A model generated the notes under the pieces. That model was not told the origin of the DNA and did not search any database. It was given only the letters and a program-made list of their open reading frames with translations. Positions 6,197 to 18,816 of a stretch of 30,984 nt of DNA are shown here, piece after piece. The DNA is from a virus. The position numbers and the translations under genes are program-made. The stretch's first letter is position 1. Each line of letters starts with the position of its first letter. The DNA lies in IMG/VR virus record IMGVR_UViG_3300043775_000300, positions 1-30,984 of that record. The stretch is one strand, 5' to 3'.

Positions 6197-6748
6197 TTAT
6201 TTAATTAAAGATTTTGCCGAATTTAATTCTCTTTCATATGATACAATTGCTTGAGCAGAATCTTCTAATAACATATCTAAATTGTCAATCGTTTGAATTA
6301 AATCAGAATATTGTTTACTACTTTTTGCATCAATACCTAATTCTTTTGATGTCTGTTCTATATCAAATTTTATTGCCTTTGCTTTTGCAATAATATTTTT
6401 TATAGAGGTTTGTCCTGCTTTAACATTTTTTATTTTTGCATCTGAATTAGAGATGTTATTTTTTAAATCATTAGAAGATTGATTAAATTTACCAGTGATA
6501 AAGTCATATTGTTTTTTAACTTCAACAAATTGTTTTTTATCTGATTCAAATAGTCTTGTATTCTTAATTAATACATCATAAGATTTATCAATATCTACAA
6601 TAGCACCACCAACAGATTTAATTACTTTAGATGATTCTTGATTTAATTTAGAAACATCTTCTTTAATACCAAGTTCTACTTCGTGTTTTGCTAACTCAGT
6701 AACATCATTGATTGCTGATACTTTCTTAAATACTTCATTTAAACCCAT
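6197..6748 (-). CDS. Coiled-coil virion-associated protein (putative)
   Basis: A 183-residue, almost entirely helical protein with heptad-like spacing (KSVGGAIVDIDKSYDVLIKN, KQYDFITGKFNQSSNDLKNN, QTIDNLDMLLEDSAQAIVSY). The start, MGLNEVFKKVSAINDVTELA, is of a type I recall among small structural proteins of Bacteroidota phages. It lies between the Cys-rich gene (beyond the HNH insertion) and the scaffold-like gene, inside the head-assembly cluster. It contains a KHEVEL peptide that is also present in the XkdF-like protein. The function is unknown; an inner-head or assembly role is inferred from neighbours. Confidence 0.6.
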   Translation of the reverse strand: MGLNEVFKKVSAINDVTELAKHEVELGIKEDVSKLNQESSKVIKSVGGAIVDIDKSYDVLIKNTRLFESDKKQFVEVKKQYDFITGKFNQSSNDLKNNISNSDAKIKNVKAGQTSIKNIIAKAKAIKFDIEQTSKELGIDAKSSKQYSDLIQTIDNLDMLLEDSAQAIVSYERELNSAKSLIK

Positions 6749-6797
6749 TGTTCTTTTTTTATTACAATATTAGAACGAATACAATTAAATTTTGTTG

Positions 6798-6805
6798 TAT
6801 ATTTG
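6798..6805 (+). promoter_or_regulatory. Likely promoter -7 box for HNH gene
   Basis: TATATTTG on the plus strand matches the Bacteroidota TAnnTTTG -7 box. It lies 24 bases before the GTG at 6829, on the strand opposite to all other genes. I do not see a TTG at the usual 17-23-base spacing upstream, so it may be weak. Confidence 0.45.
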
Positions 6806-6828
6806 ATGTGCAACTAACTGTAATTAAA

Positions 6829-7581
6829 GTGAATAAAATTAAAATACAACGAAAGAAATGTGGTACTTATTTACCTAAAGAAGATGCAATTAATAAATTA
6901 AAACAATATCTTAAATCACAGAAAACAATATTGATTAAAACCTATACAGAAATAATTTCTTTTAATGAAAATATAAGTTTTGATGATGATTTGGATTTTA
7001 ATGAAATATCAAAATCAGAAATATTAAATAGATATTTTAAATATGTTAAAATGTATGAGGAACTTGAAATGTATGATATTAAAACAATACATAAAGCATC
7101 TTTAAACTCTACAAAAAGAATGTTTCCATTTTACTATTGTAGAAAGTGTGATGATTTATCCAAGTATAATATTTTGTATAATAATATTATTTGTAATAAA
7201 TGCGAACAAAAAAAATATTTAAAGTGGCAAAAAGAAAAGAAAAAAACAAACGATTCTTATAGATTTATTTGCAATACAAGGGCATTAATTCACATAACTA
7301 TAAAAAATCAAGGATATAAAAAAAACACCAAAGCATCTAAAATATTAGGGTGCGATTGGGAAGTTTTCAAGACATATATTGAACGTAAATTCACTGAAGG
7401 TATGTCTTGGACTAATTATGGCAAATGGCATCTTGACCATATATACCCAATAAGTAAAGCCACCTCGTATGAAATGGCTTTAGAATTAAATCACTATACT
7501 AATTTTCAGCCTTTATGGGCATTTGATAATTATAGTAAAAATAATAAGATTGTAGAACATCAAAGAATGCTGCCTTTTTAA
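6829..7581 (+). CDS. HNH homing endonuclease on the antisense strand
   Basis: About 250 residues from the GTG at 6829. An upstream TTG at 6748 overlaps the opposite gene's start and the intervening frame has no convincing start. A zinc-ribbon-like CRKC...CNKC pair lies mid-protein. Near the C-terminus is the HNH core: WHLDHIYPISKATSYEMALE, then LNHYTNFQPLWAFDNYSKNN, with His-Asp-His, the central Asn and the final Asn/Lys in place. The gene is the only one on the plus strand, is markedly AT-rich, and ends with no gap against the Cys-rich gene's stop, so it reads as a mobile endonuclease inserted between two late genes. It has its own likely promoter. Confidence 0.85.
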   Translation: MNKIKIQRKKCGTYLPKEDAINKLKQYLKSQKTILIKTYTEIISFNENISFDDDLDFNEISKSEILNRYFKYVKMYEELEMYDIKTIHKASLNSTKRMFPFYYCRKCDDLSKYNILYNNIICNKCEQKKYLKWQKEKKKTNDSYRFICNTRALIHITIKNQGYKKNTKASKILGCDWEVFKTYIERKFTEGMSWTNYGKWHLDHIYPISKATSYEMALELNHYTNFQPLWAFDNYSKNNKIVEHQRMLPF

Positions 7582-7782: not shown

Positions 7783-8356
7783 CTTCTAATATTATTTGTT
7801 TGATTTTTTCTAATATGATATCCTCTTCAGACATCTGAGACATTTCTAACTTGTCAGCAAAGTAACCTTCAATTGAGAATCCTTTTACTTTACCTTCCTT
7901 AACGTCTTTCCATACTTCATCATTATTTACCTTCATTGAAATCATCCAAGTTCCTTTTGGTAAACTGAATCCGTATTTTACTGATTTGTCGTGCTTCTCG
8001 GATTCAATAATCCAAGATTCAACTACTGACATTCCTTTCAGTTTTTTGTCGTGTTCATAGGTAGCATTGTTCTGATTTGCGTTCATTAAGAAAAGCTCTG
8101 ATGCTTTGCGTACCGTGTCCTCTGAAAAATAGATATAGTATTCTTCTTTCTTTTCGTTTACTCGGTAGATGTTTTTGTTTGGAATCAAAGCAGCACCCAT
8201 TAAGATACGTTTCTCTTGGTCAATCTCTTTTAACTCTACCTCGTGTTTTGATAGATGAATAAAGTTTTCCTCAATGGCAGGAGAATGTACCACGGACACC
8301 GCGTCAATTCCGCTAAGTGAATCTTTTTCGTCAATTATTAATTCTATAATTTTCAT
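7769..8356 (-). CDS. XkdF-like putative prohead serine protease
   Basis: A 195-residue protein. The N-terminus, IIDEKDSLSGIDAVSVVHSP, leads to a body with RILMGAALIPNKNIYR, a beta-strand YYIYFSEDTVRKA, and the segment EHDKKLKGMSVVESWIIESE. Near residues 140-172 is GTWMISMKVNNDEVWKDVKE followed by GKVKGFSIEGYF. This series is characteristic of the XkdF family, proposed phage serine proteases related to prohead proteases; His in EHDKK and Ser in VVESW or GFSIE are candidate active-site residues. Its place between tape measure and scaffold/capsid genes fits head maturation. Confidence 0.75.
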   Translation of the reverse strand: MKIIELIIDEKDSLSGIDAVSVVHSPAIEENFIHLSKHEVELKEIDQEKRILMGAALIPNKNIYRVNEKKEEYYIYFSEDTVRKASELFLMNANQNNATYEHDKKLKGMSVVESWIIESEKHDKSVKYGFSLPKGTWMISMKVNNDEVWKDVKEGKVKGFSIEGYFADKLEMSQMSEEDIILEKIKQIILEDGKI

Positions 8357-8370
8357 AATATAAAAACGAT

Positions 8371-10536
8371 TTATTGTACTAATGTTGCATTTTCAATTCT
8401 GTTTCGGTCTAAGCTCTGAGCAGATGTAACTTCACCTGACACTACATAAGCCCTACTTGGTTGTTGTTGTAGTTGTGCTAATTGGTTGATTCCAGAATTA
8501 CCTACAACGTTAAAGGATGGTGACATCACAGAACCTGCTGCTCCTGTTTCTCCTCCTGTAGATGATGGCACAGTATTACTTCCTCCATCATATTTTGCTT
8601 TATTGATAGTTGCGATTTGCAATGCTCCCATAGCACCTGCCGCAATACCGAATGGAATACCTGTTGGAATACCTCCACCATTACGAACCGAGTTAACTAC
8701 GTTTGATGCAGTATCAATTATCGTTTGTACAATTCTGAGTTTCTTATCACGGTCAAACATTTTGCGTTTGATTGCATCCTCTTCCTTGCTGCCTTTCTCA
8801 ACATTCTTTAAGCGTTCGTTATCTTGAGCATTCAATAAGCCATTAAGTGAACCCATTGCCTGAGTAAATGTTTGAGCATATTTGAAAATCAAATCAACTT
8901 TTTCTTTCTGAGTTGCCTGTGCTTTTTCAAGTTGTTTTTTTTCAATTGCATCAATCTCATCTGCTTTTGCTTGTTCGATGATTGCTAATTGTTCTGCATT
9001 TCCTTCTGCTAATGTTTCAAGAGTAAAGTATTTTTGGCGTACTAATTCAAGTTGATACTCCTCCTCTGTCATTGATTTCTTCAGCCTGTTTTGGAAGTTC
9101 TGTTCATCAATTTCAAGTATCTTATCCTCCATCTCTTGGATAGATGCCAATCTTAATTTCTCTGCTTCTTTGTTTGCTTCAGCAAGTTTATCTGCTGCAA
9201 TCTTTGCATACTTATCTCTGATTGCATTAATCTCTTCCTGATGAGCAATTAGTAAGTCTTTGTCACTTTGATTTGCTGCATCTGCTTGTGCATAAAGTGC
9301 TTCATACTTATTATCTAAATCTTGTAATTCTTTTTCTTGAGCATCCGTTATTTTGGATTGACGTTCTTTTTCTTTGGAATCTAAATAAGCAATTAAATCT
9401 TCATTATACTTTTTGTTTAATTCCTTAATAATTGATTTATTATCTTTTGTTTCTTGAACTGCTTTATCGTGAGCATCCTGCTGTTGCTCTTTTATCTTAT
9501 CATTCTTTTCTTTCTCTGCCTCTAATTCTTTTTTCTTAGCATCAGTTATTTCTTGTTGAATCTCAACTTGATTTTGATGGATTACATTTCTCTTATTTTG
9601 ATATGCTGCTTTTAAGTCAGCGTATTCTTCCTTAAGTGCCTCTCGTGTTTTGGTAACTAATTCTCTTTGTTTTTCAATTACCTCATCACTCATACCTGCC
9701 ATCTTATATGATTCAAGTATGTTTCGTTGCTTTTCGTAAGTATTTCGTGCAGTTGCAACAGATGCTTCCTCCAATGCAATCTGTTCATCAGCGTGTTTTA
9801 AAGCTAACTTCCTTAATGCCTCAGCACTTGCACCTGCTGCCTTAGCCATGTTATACTCATGACCATTCTTTTCCTTTAATGCATCGCCTGCTTTATCTGC
9901 TGATGCCTTTTGTCTATTTAGTGCATCCGTGTTTTTCTTGATAGATGCCGCTGCTTCCTCATTAGCCTCAGACGATTCCATTAACCATGAAATCAATTTA
10001 TATCCAACTGCCACAACTGCGATAATAGCAGCAGCAATTGCAACCAAAGGATTTGCGTTCATTGCAGTATTCCACAACCATTGCAACGCAGTAGATATCT
10101 TTTGAATTAGAGTAAAGGATTTGACCTGTGTAATCAAAGTTTTAAATGAATCAACAGATTCCATCACTCCCTGAACTCCTTGTGCCATCGCCATTGCTGA
10201 CTGTACCTTCAACAATGCTTTTTCAACATCTGCTGATTCTGTACCAAACAATCCCATCGCACCCTGTACTGCTTGGAATCCATCCATAGCACCGCCTAAG
10301 GATTTAGTTAACGCACCAAACTTGGCATCAGGATTAAATGCATCAGTTAAGTCCTTTGCGTCTCCAATAGCATCTTTTAATTTCGCTGCTTTCTTTGCTG
10401 CCTCAGTAGCTTCCTTTGATGTAGCACCAAACTTATCTGCCATTGCAGCTACTTCCGCCTGTGCTTCCCTTAATTGGCTTCGTAAACTACCTAAATTACT
10501 CTGTATGTCTAACTCAATCGTCTTTTTCTCAGCCAT
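8371..10536 (-). CDS. Tail tape measure protein
   Basis: This 721-residue protein has a long helical N-terminus (SLRSQLREAQAEVAAMADKF), a hydrophobic transmembrane-like block (PLVAIAAAIIAVVAVGYKLI, about residues 160-182), then several hundred residues of charged coiled coil rich in Lys, Glu and Gln (KDNKSIIKELNKKYNEDLIA and similar). The Gly/Ser/Thr-rich C-terminus includes a small hydrophobic stretch, GIPFGIAAGAMGALQIAT. This is the standard make-up of a tape measure, which sets tail length and takes part in DNA delivery; at about 0.15 nm per residue the tail would be roughly 100 nm. Its ATG overlaps the 53-codon gene upstream. Confidence 0.88.
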   Translation of the reverse strand: MAEKKTIELDIQSNLGSLRSQLREAQAEVAAMADKFGATSKEATEAAKKAAKLKDAIGDAKDLTDAFNPDAKFGALTKSLGGAMDGFQAVQGAMGLFGTESADVEKALLKVQSAMAMAQGVQGVMESVDSFKTLITQVKSFTLIQKISTALQWLWNTAMNANPLVAIAAAIIAVVAVGYKLISWLMESSEANEEAAASIKKNTDALNRQKASADKAGDALKEKNGHEYNMAKAAGASAEALRKLALKHADEQIALEEASVATARNTYEKQRNILESYKMAGMSDEVIEKQRELVTKTREALKEEYADLKAAYQNKRNVIHQNQVEIQQEITDAKKKELEAEKEKNDKIKEQQQDAHDKAVQETKDNKSIIKELNKKYNEDLIAYLDSKEKERQSKITDAQEKELQDLDNKYEALYAQADAANQSDKDLLIAHQEEINAIRDKYAKIAADKLAEANKEAEKLRLASIQEMEDKILEIDEQNFQNRLKKSMTEEEYQLELVRQKYFTLETLAEGNAEQLAIIEQAKADEIDAIEKKQLEKAQATQKEKVDLIFKYAQTFTQAMGSLNGLLNAQDNERLKNVEKGSKEEDAIKRKMFDRDKKLRIVQTIIDTASNVVNSVRNGGGIPTGIPFGIAAGAMGALQIATINKAKYDGGSNTVPSSTGGETGAAGSVMSPSFNVVGNSGINQLAQLQQQPSRAYVVSGEVTSAQSLDRNRIENATLVQ

Positions 10537-14510: not shown

Positions 14511-14734
14511 TCCACTACTAAATAAGTTGGTTCGGTTGGTTCAGGAGCTTGACTAATAGAACCCCAAGATGAAGCATATTTTTTATCTACAATAACATAA
14601 GATGAATTCGTCCACGTGTACAATTTACCTGTATTAATTGCAACGTACAAAATAGAGCTATCACCCCTCTGAGGAAATGAAGCAAGGTTATTATATCTTG
14701 CGTGTTTTTGTGGTAGGTTAATATTAAAAGCCAT
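14507..14734 (-). CDS. Small tail-associated protein
   Basis: A 75-residue protein with FPQRGDSSILYVAINTGKLY followed by TWTNSSYVIVDKKY. This 'FPxxG...LYV...TGKLYTW...Y' element is a short beta module that recurs in phage fibre and tail-tip proteins. It lies between the 151-residue tail gene (shared base) and the gp10-like gene (ATGA overlap). A tail-tip or fibre-attachment role is an inference; no catalytic motif is visible. Confidence 0.58.
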   Translation of the reverse strand: MAFNINLPQKHARYNNLASFPQRGDSSILYVAINTGKLYTWTNSSYVIVDKKYASSWGSISQAPEPTEPTYLVVE

Positions 14735-15189
14735 TAGCAGATAGTCATATCGTTTGGTACTGTGATATCAAATGTCATTGTCCATCCTGCAAGATAGTTC
14801 TCAAATCTTTCAGTGAATGGTTCTAAGTTTGGTTGCCCTTCAATCACAAACAAATCATCCCATAAATTACCGTGCATCATTTGCTGATAAGCACGATTTA
14901 AAACAGAGTGCTGAGTGTTTAGTACATCCAACTCATTGTTGTTCTCTTGGAATGTATCAGTTACCTCAGCTTTGGAAATGTCTACAATATCCATCGCAAG
15001 AATAGATACGTTGAATGTTTGTGTGTTTGGAGTAAGCGTTGAACTGTTGACCATTATATGAGTTAATGGAAAGATAGTCTGCTTATTCAAGTCTACCTGA
15101 AAGATGTCACCTTGAGTAACCGTGTTCACGATAGGGTCACCATCAAAGTGTCCTTTTAGTTTGTCTAAAATTGTGTAGTATCCTGTCAT
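14734..15189 (-). CDS. Tail completion/terminator-like protein (putative)
   Basis: A 151-residue protein beginning MTGYYTILDKLKGHFDGDPI, with VTQGDIFQVDLNKQTIFPLT, a central VSILAMDIVDI strand and a C-terminal AGWTMTFDITVPNDMTIC. A helix, then mixed strands, then a strand ending in 'W-x-M-x-F-x-I-x-V' is what I recall from small tail-completion proteins in Bacteroidota phages. Its ATG shares ATGA with the stop of the -1 frame of the upstream gene, not with the zero-frame stop. It precedes the fibre-module and gp10-like genes. Confidence 0.55.
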   Translation of the reverse strand: MTGYYTILDKLKGHFDGDPIVNTVTQGDIFQVDLNKQTIFPLTHIMVNSSTLTPNTQTFNVSILAMDIVDISKAEVTDTFQENNNELDVLNTQHSVLNRAYQQMMHGNLWDDLFVIEGQPNLEPFTERFENYLAGWTMTFDITVPNDMTIC

Positions 15190-15461
15190 CGTTTTAAATT
15201 ACGGTTAAATTGTCTGTGTTCGATTTCGTTTTTTTGTTTTTCGAAAACGAGATAGGTGAGACATTTAGTAAGTCTGAGTTCGGTAACTTCGTCAAATCTG
15301 GTAATGTCTCCCTTAGCAAGTCCATATATTGATTGATACCATCCCCATCGCTTGGCAAATTGAGTTGTTTCTGAAAAGTCATTTGCAATTCCTTGTTCTT
15401 CTCCATCTCCTTCTCCAAATAATTCAGGGTAGCCTGCAATAACTCGTTTCCTAAACTCCAA
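15186..15461 (-). CDS. -1 frame extension of tail-chaperone-like gene (frameshift product)
   Basis: An open -1 frame of 91 codons lying inside the 255-residue gene. Its upstream stop (TAG at 15473-15471) sits just before the T9 run, so the frame is open exactly from the slippery site onward. The translation looks like a genuine protein: EFRKRVIAGYPELFGEGDGE, then a Trp/Tyr-rich motif KRWGWYQSIYGLAKGDITRF and CLTYLVFEKQKNEIEHRQ. I recall similar 'GWYQSIY-LAxGDITxF' proteins in Bacteroidota phages. The stop shares ATGA with the next tail gene. It has no convincing start of its own, so entry by -1 slippage (product about 258 residues) is the favoured reading. Confidence 0.72.
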   Translation of the reverse strand: MEFRKRVIAGYPELFGEGDGEEQGIANDFSETTQFAKRWGWYQSIYGLAKGDITRFDEVTELRLTKCLTYLVFEKQKNEIEHRQFNRNLKR

Positions 15462-15961
15462 AAAAAAACACTACTTGCAATCACTACATCCAAAGGTGCA
15501 AACTTCATCATTTCCTGAAAGTCAACATTTGGTTCGTATTGCATAATATCGTACTTGTCCTTATGTCTTTTAACAATTGGTCTGTACATTACTGCCATTG
15601 CTTTGTGATAGTCTTCCCATTTAGTAAGGTGATTTTCTAAGTCAACGTATTCACCAAATGATATTGATTCCAATTCAGGAATGAACCCAAACTCAATTTC
15701 AGTTTCGTTAGCTTTAATCGTGAATTTGTTCTTGAATGCTGGCTTCTCAGAGAATAACTTTGTGAAGTGAACTATCAACTCATTCAAAGATGTTAGCTTC
15801 ATTTTAACAACGTCTTTTAGTTGAAGTCCGCAGAATATCTCAATCATCTTTTGAGCTACAAATTCCTCATCATTGGATTCTGCCTGAACTTTCAGGAACT
15901 CCTGATAATTCTTTAATGGAATTTCACTTAGGCTTGATGGAACGTTAATTTCTAACTTCAT
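15194..15961 (-). CDS. Tail assembly chaperone-like protein, zero frame
   Basis: A 255-residue protein opening MKLEINVPSSLSEIPLKNYQ, with an acidic helical body, a segment ISFGEYVDLENHLTKWEDYH, AMAVMYRPIVKRHKDKYDIM and PLDVVIASSVFFWSLGNELL. Codons 165-167 (GTT TTT TTT) carry a slippery T run. The zero frame then continues 88 residues (GDGINQYMDLLRETLPDL...) while the -1 frame continues 91. In many tailed phages a frameshifting gene upstream of the tape measure makes two tail chaperones (G/GT-like), and position and slippage fit that role. The unusual point is that both downstream frames are long and protein-like. Confidence 0.65.
   Translation of the reverse strand: MKLEINVPSSLSEIPLKNYQEFLKVQAESNDEEFVAQKMIEIFCGLQLKDVVKMKLTSLNELIVHFTKLFSEKPAFKNKFTIKANETEIEFGFIPELESISFGEYVDLENHLTKWEDYHKAMAVMYRPIVKRHKDKYDIMQYEPNVDFQEMMKFAPLDVVIASSVFFWSLGNELLQATLNYLEKEMEKNKELQMTFQKQLNLPSDGDGINQYMDLLRETLPDLTKLPNSDLLNVSPISFSKNKKTKSNTDNLTVI
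15460..15469 (-). promoter_or_regulatory. Slippery site G-T9 for -1 frameshifting
   Basis: On the minus strand the sequence is G followed by nine T, then GG. Zero-frame codons are GTT TTT TTT TGG, so the heptamer T TTT TTT is in the correct register for a -1 slip (to TTG GAG). Polymerase slippage on T9 is an alternative mechanism. Confidence 0.7.
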
Positions 15962-15975
15962 AATATTAAAACGAT

Positions 15976-16155
15976 TTATTTAGTGTTTTGTTGTACCTGT
16001 ACTATATCATATGCTGCACATAACATTTGAAAGTGCAATCTCATTTTCATTGGTTCATCAAAGATAATCTTTATTCGTTTTCCTGTACGTTGGTAAATGT
16101 AATCTTCCACCACTGCTTTCAGCATAGGTAAATCATCTGATGAAGTATTTTCCAT
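15976..16155 (-). CDS. 59-residue small protein after terminase
   Basis: An open frame from the ATG at 16155 to TAA at 15976, reading MENTSSDDLPMLKAVVEDYI and then YQRTGKRIKIIFDEPMKMRL with an amphipathic C-terminal helix. It overlaps the end of the terminase large subunit gene by 23 bases and ends 14 bases before the tail-chaperone-like gene. It fills an otherwise unexplained gap and looks protein-like (charged, no stops, no repeats). No family is recognised; the function is unknown. Confidence 0.62.
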   Translation of the reverse strand: MENTSSDDLPMLKAVVEDYIYQRTGKRIKIIFDEPMKMRLHFQMLCAAYDIVQVQQNTK

Positions 16156-18288: not shown

Positions 18289-18816
18289 TTATTTTATTAA
18301 TTCAAAATCTTCATTTAAATAATCCTCAAATTCTTCTCCAATTGCTTCTCGAAGTCTTTCCTTGCAGTTTTTAAGCGTGTTGAAGATAGATGTCAAACTT
18401 ATATCTGTCTCCTCTGCTATTTCACGCATTGACAAGTTGGTGTCTCGGTACAAATTGAATAGCTTTATATCATACCAATGCCATGTCTCCACCTCTTCCT
18501 GTATTTTCTGCTCAATTAGATTGAATGCTTCGTGTTTTTCTAAGTTGGTTTCATCATAACTTAGTTTTATGCATTCGTCAATTGATACGCTTTCAATCTT
18601 CTTTGCTCGCAAATGGTCAATGTAAACGCTTCTCAGAATAAGCCACATTATATTTTTGTTTACCGAATCAGTTACAATCTTATCTATATGATTTAAACGT
18701 ATAATTTTGATATATGTTTCTTGAACTATATCTTCTGCAAGGAAGTATTCACCAAAGCTGTTGACTATTCTCAGCCAATCTTTATGGTGTTTTGCAAGTG
18801 TTGAAAGTTTATCCAT
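18289..18816 (-). CDS. Phage sigma-70-family factor
   Basis: A 175-residue protein with a sigma region-2-like segment, EYFLAEDIVQETYIKIIRLN (about residues 23-42) continuing into MWLILRSVYIDHLRAKKIES (about 57-76). A region-4-like C-terminus, SMREIAEETDISLTSIFNTL then KNCKERLREAIG, carries the helix-turn-helix for the -35 element. The short ECF-like size is usual for phage sigma factors. It is the first gene of the late unit, behind its own TATGTTTG box, and would direct host RNA polymerase to late genes. It might act on its own promoter too; no late consensus can be drawn by eye. Confidence 0.82.
   Translation of the reverse strand: MDKLSTLAKHHKDWLRIVNSFGEYFLAEDIVQETYIKIIRLNHIDKIVTDSVNKNIMWLILRSVYIDHLRAKKIESVSIDECIKLSYDETNLEKHEAFNLIEQKIQEEVETWHWYDIKLFNLYRDTNLSMREIAEETDISLTSIFNTLKNCKERLREAIGEEFEDYLNEDFELIK

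Follow-up and report, generated by a model that had tools for sequence, protein, structure and literature searches.

Two long overlapping reading frames under selection downstream of a conserved T9 run in a putative tail assembly gene of phages of flavobacteria and their kin

The window studied here is an entire virus record of 30,984 bases, and on its minus strand lies a gene, referred to below as the slip gene, in which two long reading frames overlap downstream of a run of nine T's. The anatomy of this gene, its conservation in relatives and purifying selection on both frames are established by sequence comparison alone. With moderate confidence, and without expression data, we interpret it as a tail assembly gene of the G/GT type whose two alternative C-termini are dual-coded. 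Production of both proteins, the polymerase as the route between the frames, the chaperone role, the division of labour between the two forms and their binding to tape measure and tube proteins are all inferences. Translation of both frames is an inference about which we have little doubt, a chaperone-type function is likely, and slippage of the polymerase as the main route is a somewhat weaker preference.

Anatomy of the slip locus

The slip gene contains a zero-frame open reading frame of 255 aa (15961..15194, minus strand), conserved in relatives, that is interrupted neither at nor after the motif G-T9-GG. The T run occupies positions 15460-15468, and the heptamer T TTT TTT at 15467-15461 lies in zero-frame register. 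The -1 frame is closed just upstream of the run by a TAG (15473-15471) and then stays open for 91 codons, up to a TGA at 15188-15186 that overlaps the ATG of the next gene as ATGA. This -1 domain (15186..15461, minus strand) carries a WGWY motif, has no start codon of its own and, in the window, contains no Met at all. The zero frame remains open for 88 codons past the run and ends at a TAA (15196-15194) a few bases ahead of the start of the next gene, so that 88 zero-frame codons (15197..15459) are also read in the -1 frame. The predicted products are the 255-aa protein, in which a shared N-terminal domain (approximately residues 1-167) is followed by the zero-frame tail, and a fusion of 167 + 91 = 258 aa. 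The next gene (14734..15189, minus strand, 151 aa, of unknown function) is probably translationally coupled to the slip gene. An earlier note, made from the letters of the window, had described the register of the heptamer, the TAG, the 91-codon frame with its ATGA junction, the 88 open zero-frame codons and products of about 255 and 258 residues, and all of these features and sizes were reproduced. No other A/T run in the 31-kb record reaches nine bases. A separate internal start for the -1 frame could be ruled out, as 131 of 132 relatives have no ATG within its first 30 codons.

Conservation of the run and of both frames

A scan with the zero-frame protein identified 260 relatives. The best 80 of these 260 all have the T9 run in the same position, and each of the two open frames has nearly the same length from one locus to the next wherever the contig reaches its end. 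Scans with divergent members returned at least 582, at least 547 and at least 561 matches, and the best 80 loci were kept from each. The family comprises hundreds of phages from flavobacteria and related hosts; the only isolated phages among the relatives found are the Nonlabens phages P12024S and P12024L. Seven loci stem from genome contigs, mostly of Bacteroidota. The strain genome of Flagellimonas onchidii XY-359 has a T9 run, a zero-frame tail of 70 codons and a -1 frame of 88 codons. Its gene sits on a 320-kb scaffold (NZ_SRXX01000003.1), and prophages are therefore probably part of the family.

Among 276 distinct loci, 226 have T9, 48 have T10 and 2 have T12, and a run of 7 or 8 was never seen. 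Every one of them keeps the -1 domain in -1 register to the N-domain; this domain is 80-91 codons long, and the zero-frame tail reaches at least 46 codons in 274 of the 276, the exceptions being P12024S and P12024L with 24. A register was computed for 275 loci; the first T of the run falls on codon position 2 in 257 of them, on position 1 in 13 and on position 3 in 5, and the length of the run is thus kept although the register changes. The surveyed loci share kinship, and they were found through the N-domain or the -1 domain, not through the run. Away from the slip site such runs are uncommon: 1.57 Mb of family loci contain 70 runs of T8, and 299 of T9 and 60 of T10 when the slip sites are counted in. 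Phe at the slip site is always spelled TTT TTT, while 35% of the Phe codons of the N-domain are TTC. One locus (L127) has the T9 run together with a single in-frame stop early in the N-domain. An assembly error or a phase-variable run could be excluded, since 276 loci share one frame relation, which is preserved in the T10 and T12 cases.

The lengths of the zero-frame tails were placed on a tree of 68 proteins, in which tails of 53-67 codons are the widespread state and tails of 77-88 codons occur in the clade of the window and in a second group. The midpoint root served only for drawing, and the direction of these changes is therefore only inferred. As the zero-frame stop of the other relatives falls earlier, the full 88-codon overlap is special to the clade of the window. 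The earlier note had held that a stop in either downstream frame of related phages would refute its reading. Such a stop does occur in the zero frame, usually 53-67 codons after the run, which meets this test in part; an overlap of at least 46 codons is still nearly universal in the family, the 24 codons of P12024S and P12024L apart. The Trp/Tyr-rich motif that the note ascribed to related phages proved to be real, with W39, W41 and Y42 nearly invariant across the family.

Predicted structures and family matches

An AlphaFold2 model of the zero-frame form has a mean pLDDT of 81 and places the slip site within a long helix. The zero-frame tail is predicted to add two further helices, with the last 16 residues disordered. 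The model of the -1 domain is all-helical with a mean pLDDT of 86, and this domain is the more conserved protein of the two. Searches of solved structures (PDB) by sequence and by fold returned no relatives. Most matches in BFVD are uncharacterised phage proteins; one weak match (E 0.19) is named a tail assembly chaperone. The 'tail protein' family phrog_166 was matched in 18 of 66 relatives, reaching only E 8.5e-5, and no significant match to a named chaperone family was found. The gene satisfies one criterion for chaperone-type genes with a programmed frameshift, namely a slippery site that joins an upstream open reading frame to a -1 frame without a start of its own.

A protein of Flavobacterium phage 6H was recovered as a weak fold match and was dropped despite a T TTT TTC sequence, because the -1 frame closes at once there. 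Behind this weak relative (L165, 10048-10927) lies an unannotated gap of ~305 bases with an open frame inside, which may encode a C-terminus of chaperone type that is entered through a different, likewise unannotated kind of frameshift.

Selection on both reading frames

Third codon positions of the -1 frame coincide with second positions of the zero frame, and synonymous change in the -1 frame thus gauges the conservation of the zero frame. When independent pairs of sister sequences were compared, four-fold sites of the -1 frame were found to differ in 0.8% of comparisons in codons 1-22 of the overlap, 5.5% in codons 23-58 and 8.4% from codon 59 onward, against 17.7% in the N-domain. Relative to the upstream domain, variation is thus reduced 22-fold in codons 1-22 and 2- to 3-fold thereafter, and the drop persists at sites where no stop can arise. 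We also sorted changes into four classes and counted them, with a sham frame placed in the N-domain serving as control. Those that are silent in the -1 frame but alter the zero frame amount to 0.064, 0.115 and 0.169 per site in the three intervals (codons 1-22, 23-58 and 59+), compared to 0.284 in the control. For changes that are silent in both frames there is no reduction in codons 1-22, at ~0.76 per site versus ~0.06 for the zero-frame-altering class, and the constraint there consequently acts on protein and not on RNA. RNA structure as the cause of the low synonymous change was ruled out for these codons, given that both-synonymous changes are frequent and structure prediction found none. 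This class of changes is small, and the result for codons 59+ rests on few such sites.

The clade of the window has virtually no zero-frame stops of the kind that would leave the -1 protein unaltered, and at codons 59+ no stop-creating change was counted at 65 weighted sites, compared to 0.51 per site in the sham control. Leu is spelled CTC or CTT where TTA or TTG would create a zero-frame stop; CTC accounts for 12/606 codons elsewhere in the window versus about 177/489 in the -1 frame of the clade. Beyond the point at which short-tail relatives stop the zero frame, the constraint at two-fold sites relaxes (p=5.5e-4), four-fold sites being too few for the comparison. When synonymous codons of the -1 frame were shuffled, weighted by the phage's own codon use, the zero frame was open to the observed length in 0/2000 shuffles for the window, and the median for the long-tail clade was 0. 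Together with the recurrence in 276 distinct loci, this places the overlap, as judged from sequence, beyond chance.

It is scarcely credible, then, that the -1 frame is the sole real product and the zero-frame tail a product of chance, or that T9 is an assembly error. The greater conservation of the -1 domain as a protein would suit such an explanation, but the run and the fixed frame relation are retained in 276 loci, isolates included, and the openness of the zero frame has a P below 1/2000 in the window. We regard it as already refuted by the comparative data, barring like read errors across many sequencing projects.

A second possibility, which appears unlikely, is that the zero-frame tail has no function as a protein and is kept open only for translational coupling or against early termination and polarity. 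The zero-frame stop does lie a few bases before the next ATG, at an equal offset, in 61 of 64 long-tail relatives, and codons 59+ purge stops more strictly than residue changes. However, change is reduced even where stops cannot arise, most strongly in codons 1-22; in most relatives the zero frame stops ~60-90 bases earlier with the ATGA junction unchanged; and helices are predicted in the zero-frame tail. Past codon 59 the residues of the tail are only moderately constrained. The comparative data show purifying selection in both frames, strong for codons 1-22 and moderate after them, and support the claim of the earlier note that two long functional frames overlap at a programmed slip site. 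Its proposed search for codon-level constraint gave a graded answer for the residues of the zero-frame tail, clear in the first 22 codons and weaker further on.

Genomic context

On the minus strand the genes follow the order TerS, TerL, a 59-aa open reading frame, the slip gene, five further genes, of which one resembles a neck protein, and a probable tape measure gene, after which come a head protease, a capsid-type virion protein and the portal. The slip gene forms the upstream end of the tail block, past TerL, and is not adjacent to the tape measure gene. Chaperone genes of the lambda G/GT type sit between the tube and tape measure genes; no tube gene was identified in the window. The 59-aa frame (15976-16155, minus strand) overlaps the end of TerL and has no family match. 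A 22-base leader, TAAATCGTTTTAATATTATGAA, occurs at 15957-15978 and, with one mismatch, at 8352-8373 (minus strand), with zero copies expected by chance, and covers the start codon of each of two genes, the slip gene and the head protease gene. It may represent a promoter or translation start element shared by two late units. A lone plus-strand frame with a TTG start (6748-7581) lies inside the head gene block and resembles endonuclease VII (phrog_1035, 8e-10). Upstream of the packaging genes, 18289-18816 (minus strand) encodes a protein similar to RNA polymerase sigma factors (phrog_1740, 5e-12), and a sigma-70 region 2 protein is encoded at a comparable position in P12024S. Should the protein of the window drive late transcription, it could matter for slippage on T9. 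A search of the window for Rfam families and tRNA returned none.

Route to the second frame

In the mechanism that we propose, the majority of messages and ribosomes would keep the zero frame and yield the 255-aa form. In a minority, one U would be added while T9 is transcribed, and the product would be the 258-aa fusion that ends in the conserved WGWY domain. As inferred from lambda, coating the tape measure protein would be the task of the common form, and recruiting the tube protein that of the rarer one. In contrast to lambda, the zero-frame tail is itself a long protein segment under selection.

The same two proteins could also arise by a -1 shift of the ribosome on U UUU UUU during translation, the run being nine or longer only on account of the residues that flank it. 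We consider this a real possibility, albeit not the preferred one. The heptamer is always in register, and this is the established route for lambda and P2 and for known tail chaperones (PMC5009743). The run is flanked by hydrophobic residues encoded by NTT and TGG/TAY/TTN, which could keep it long for protein reasons. However, the heptamer needs only seven T's, yet lengths of 7 or 8 were never seen in 276 loci and three registers, and no stimulatory structure was found; a search for stable or covarying RNA downstream of the run gave a z-score of +0.97 and no covarying pairs. The lack of a stimulator lowers the case for a ribosomal shift without excluding it, because such stimulators are not obligatory, and any T9 also contains an in-register T TTT TTT.

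Slippage of the polymerase is favoured, albeit unproven, because the run length is kept at nine or more and conserved RNA structure is absent. Transcriptional slip sites are described as eight or longer, while ribosomal sites involve seven (PMC3711429), and nine A/T is the length from which many bacteria avoid runs owing to slippage (PMC1088944). The family meets the corresponding criterion for transcriptional slippage, a homopolymer of about nine A/T conserved by length beyond codon register. Both routes named in the earlier note thus remain, with the order changed: polymerase slippage, which it had offered as a mere alternative, is the one supported by a run that is always nine or longer.

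A more speculative possibility is that polymerase slippage on a T9 run selected for its length sets the ratio of three products, a zero-frame long form, a -1 long form and a short form, and that the zero-frame tail is an overprinted segment which grew longer on two or more occasions and on which tail assembly depends. The short form, a prediction only, would arise from the +1 frame, which closes within four codons in nearly all loci.

Comparison with known systems

Few cases of recoding have been studied as well as frameshifted tail genes, and the slip-gene family provides a large natural data set on the evolution of dual coding. It suggests that polymerase slippage can replace ribosomal frameshifting in tail assembly, and it corrects an annotation, since half of a real protein has been missed or misjoined in the genomes of the family, published isolates included. 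A full-text literature search, in which subscription papers were mostly out of reach, returned no frameshifted tail gene with two long conserved C-termini and no report of transcriptional slippage in a frameshifted tail gene.

In the potyvirus P3N-PIPO system, the slipping enzyme is the polymerase of a plant RNA virus, and the slip motif is a different one. The likeness to the slip gene is that slippage leads to a pair of proteins that share their N-terminus and whose C-terminal parts are dual-coded (PMC5009743, PMC4552492); the proteins are unrelated and no phage tail is involved. Among bacteria, conserved runs of about nine A/T reach another frame in Thermus dnaX, in Shigella mxiE and spa13, and in IS transposases; unlike the slip gene, these 9A/9T genes are not described as having a long conserved dual-coding stretch, at least in the available parts of the sources (PMC1088944, PMC5009743).

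The Nonlabens phages P12024S and P12024L (Inhavirus) have a homologous gene right after TerL (P12024S_38, P12024L_40) with T9 and a homologous -1 frame. They differ in that the zero-frame tail is only 24-25 codons long, depending on the counting method, and that the N-domain is 26% identical; in their annotation the frameshift is unmarked and the parts are called hypothetical protein.

Lambda G/GT and P2 E/E+E' resemble the slip gene in their shared N-terminal domain, their -1 extension without a start of its own, their place in the tail module and their slippery heptamer in register. In contrast to the slip gene, which lies just downstream of the terminase genes, the lambda and P2 genes stand directly upstream of the tape measure gene. 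Past the slip site their zero frame continues for only 5 codons in lambda and 6 in P2, compared to 46-88 in the slip-gene family, and the run of the slip gene, unlike theirs, always consists of nine or more T's.
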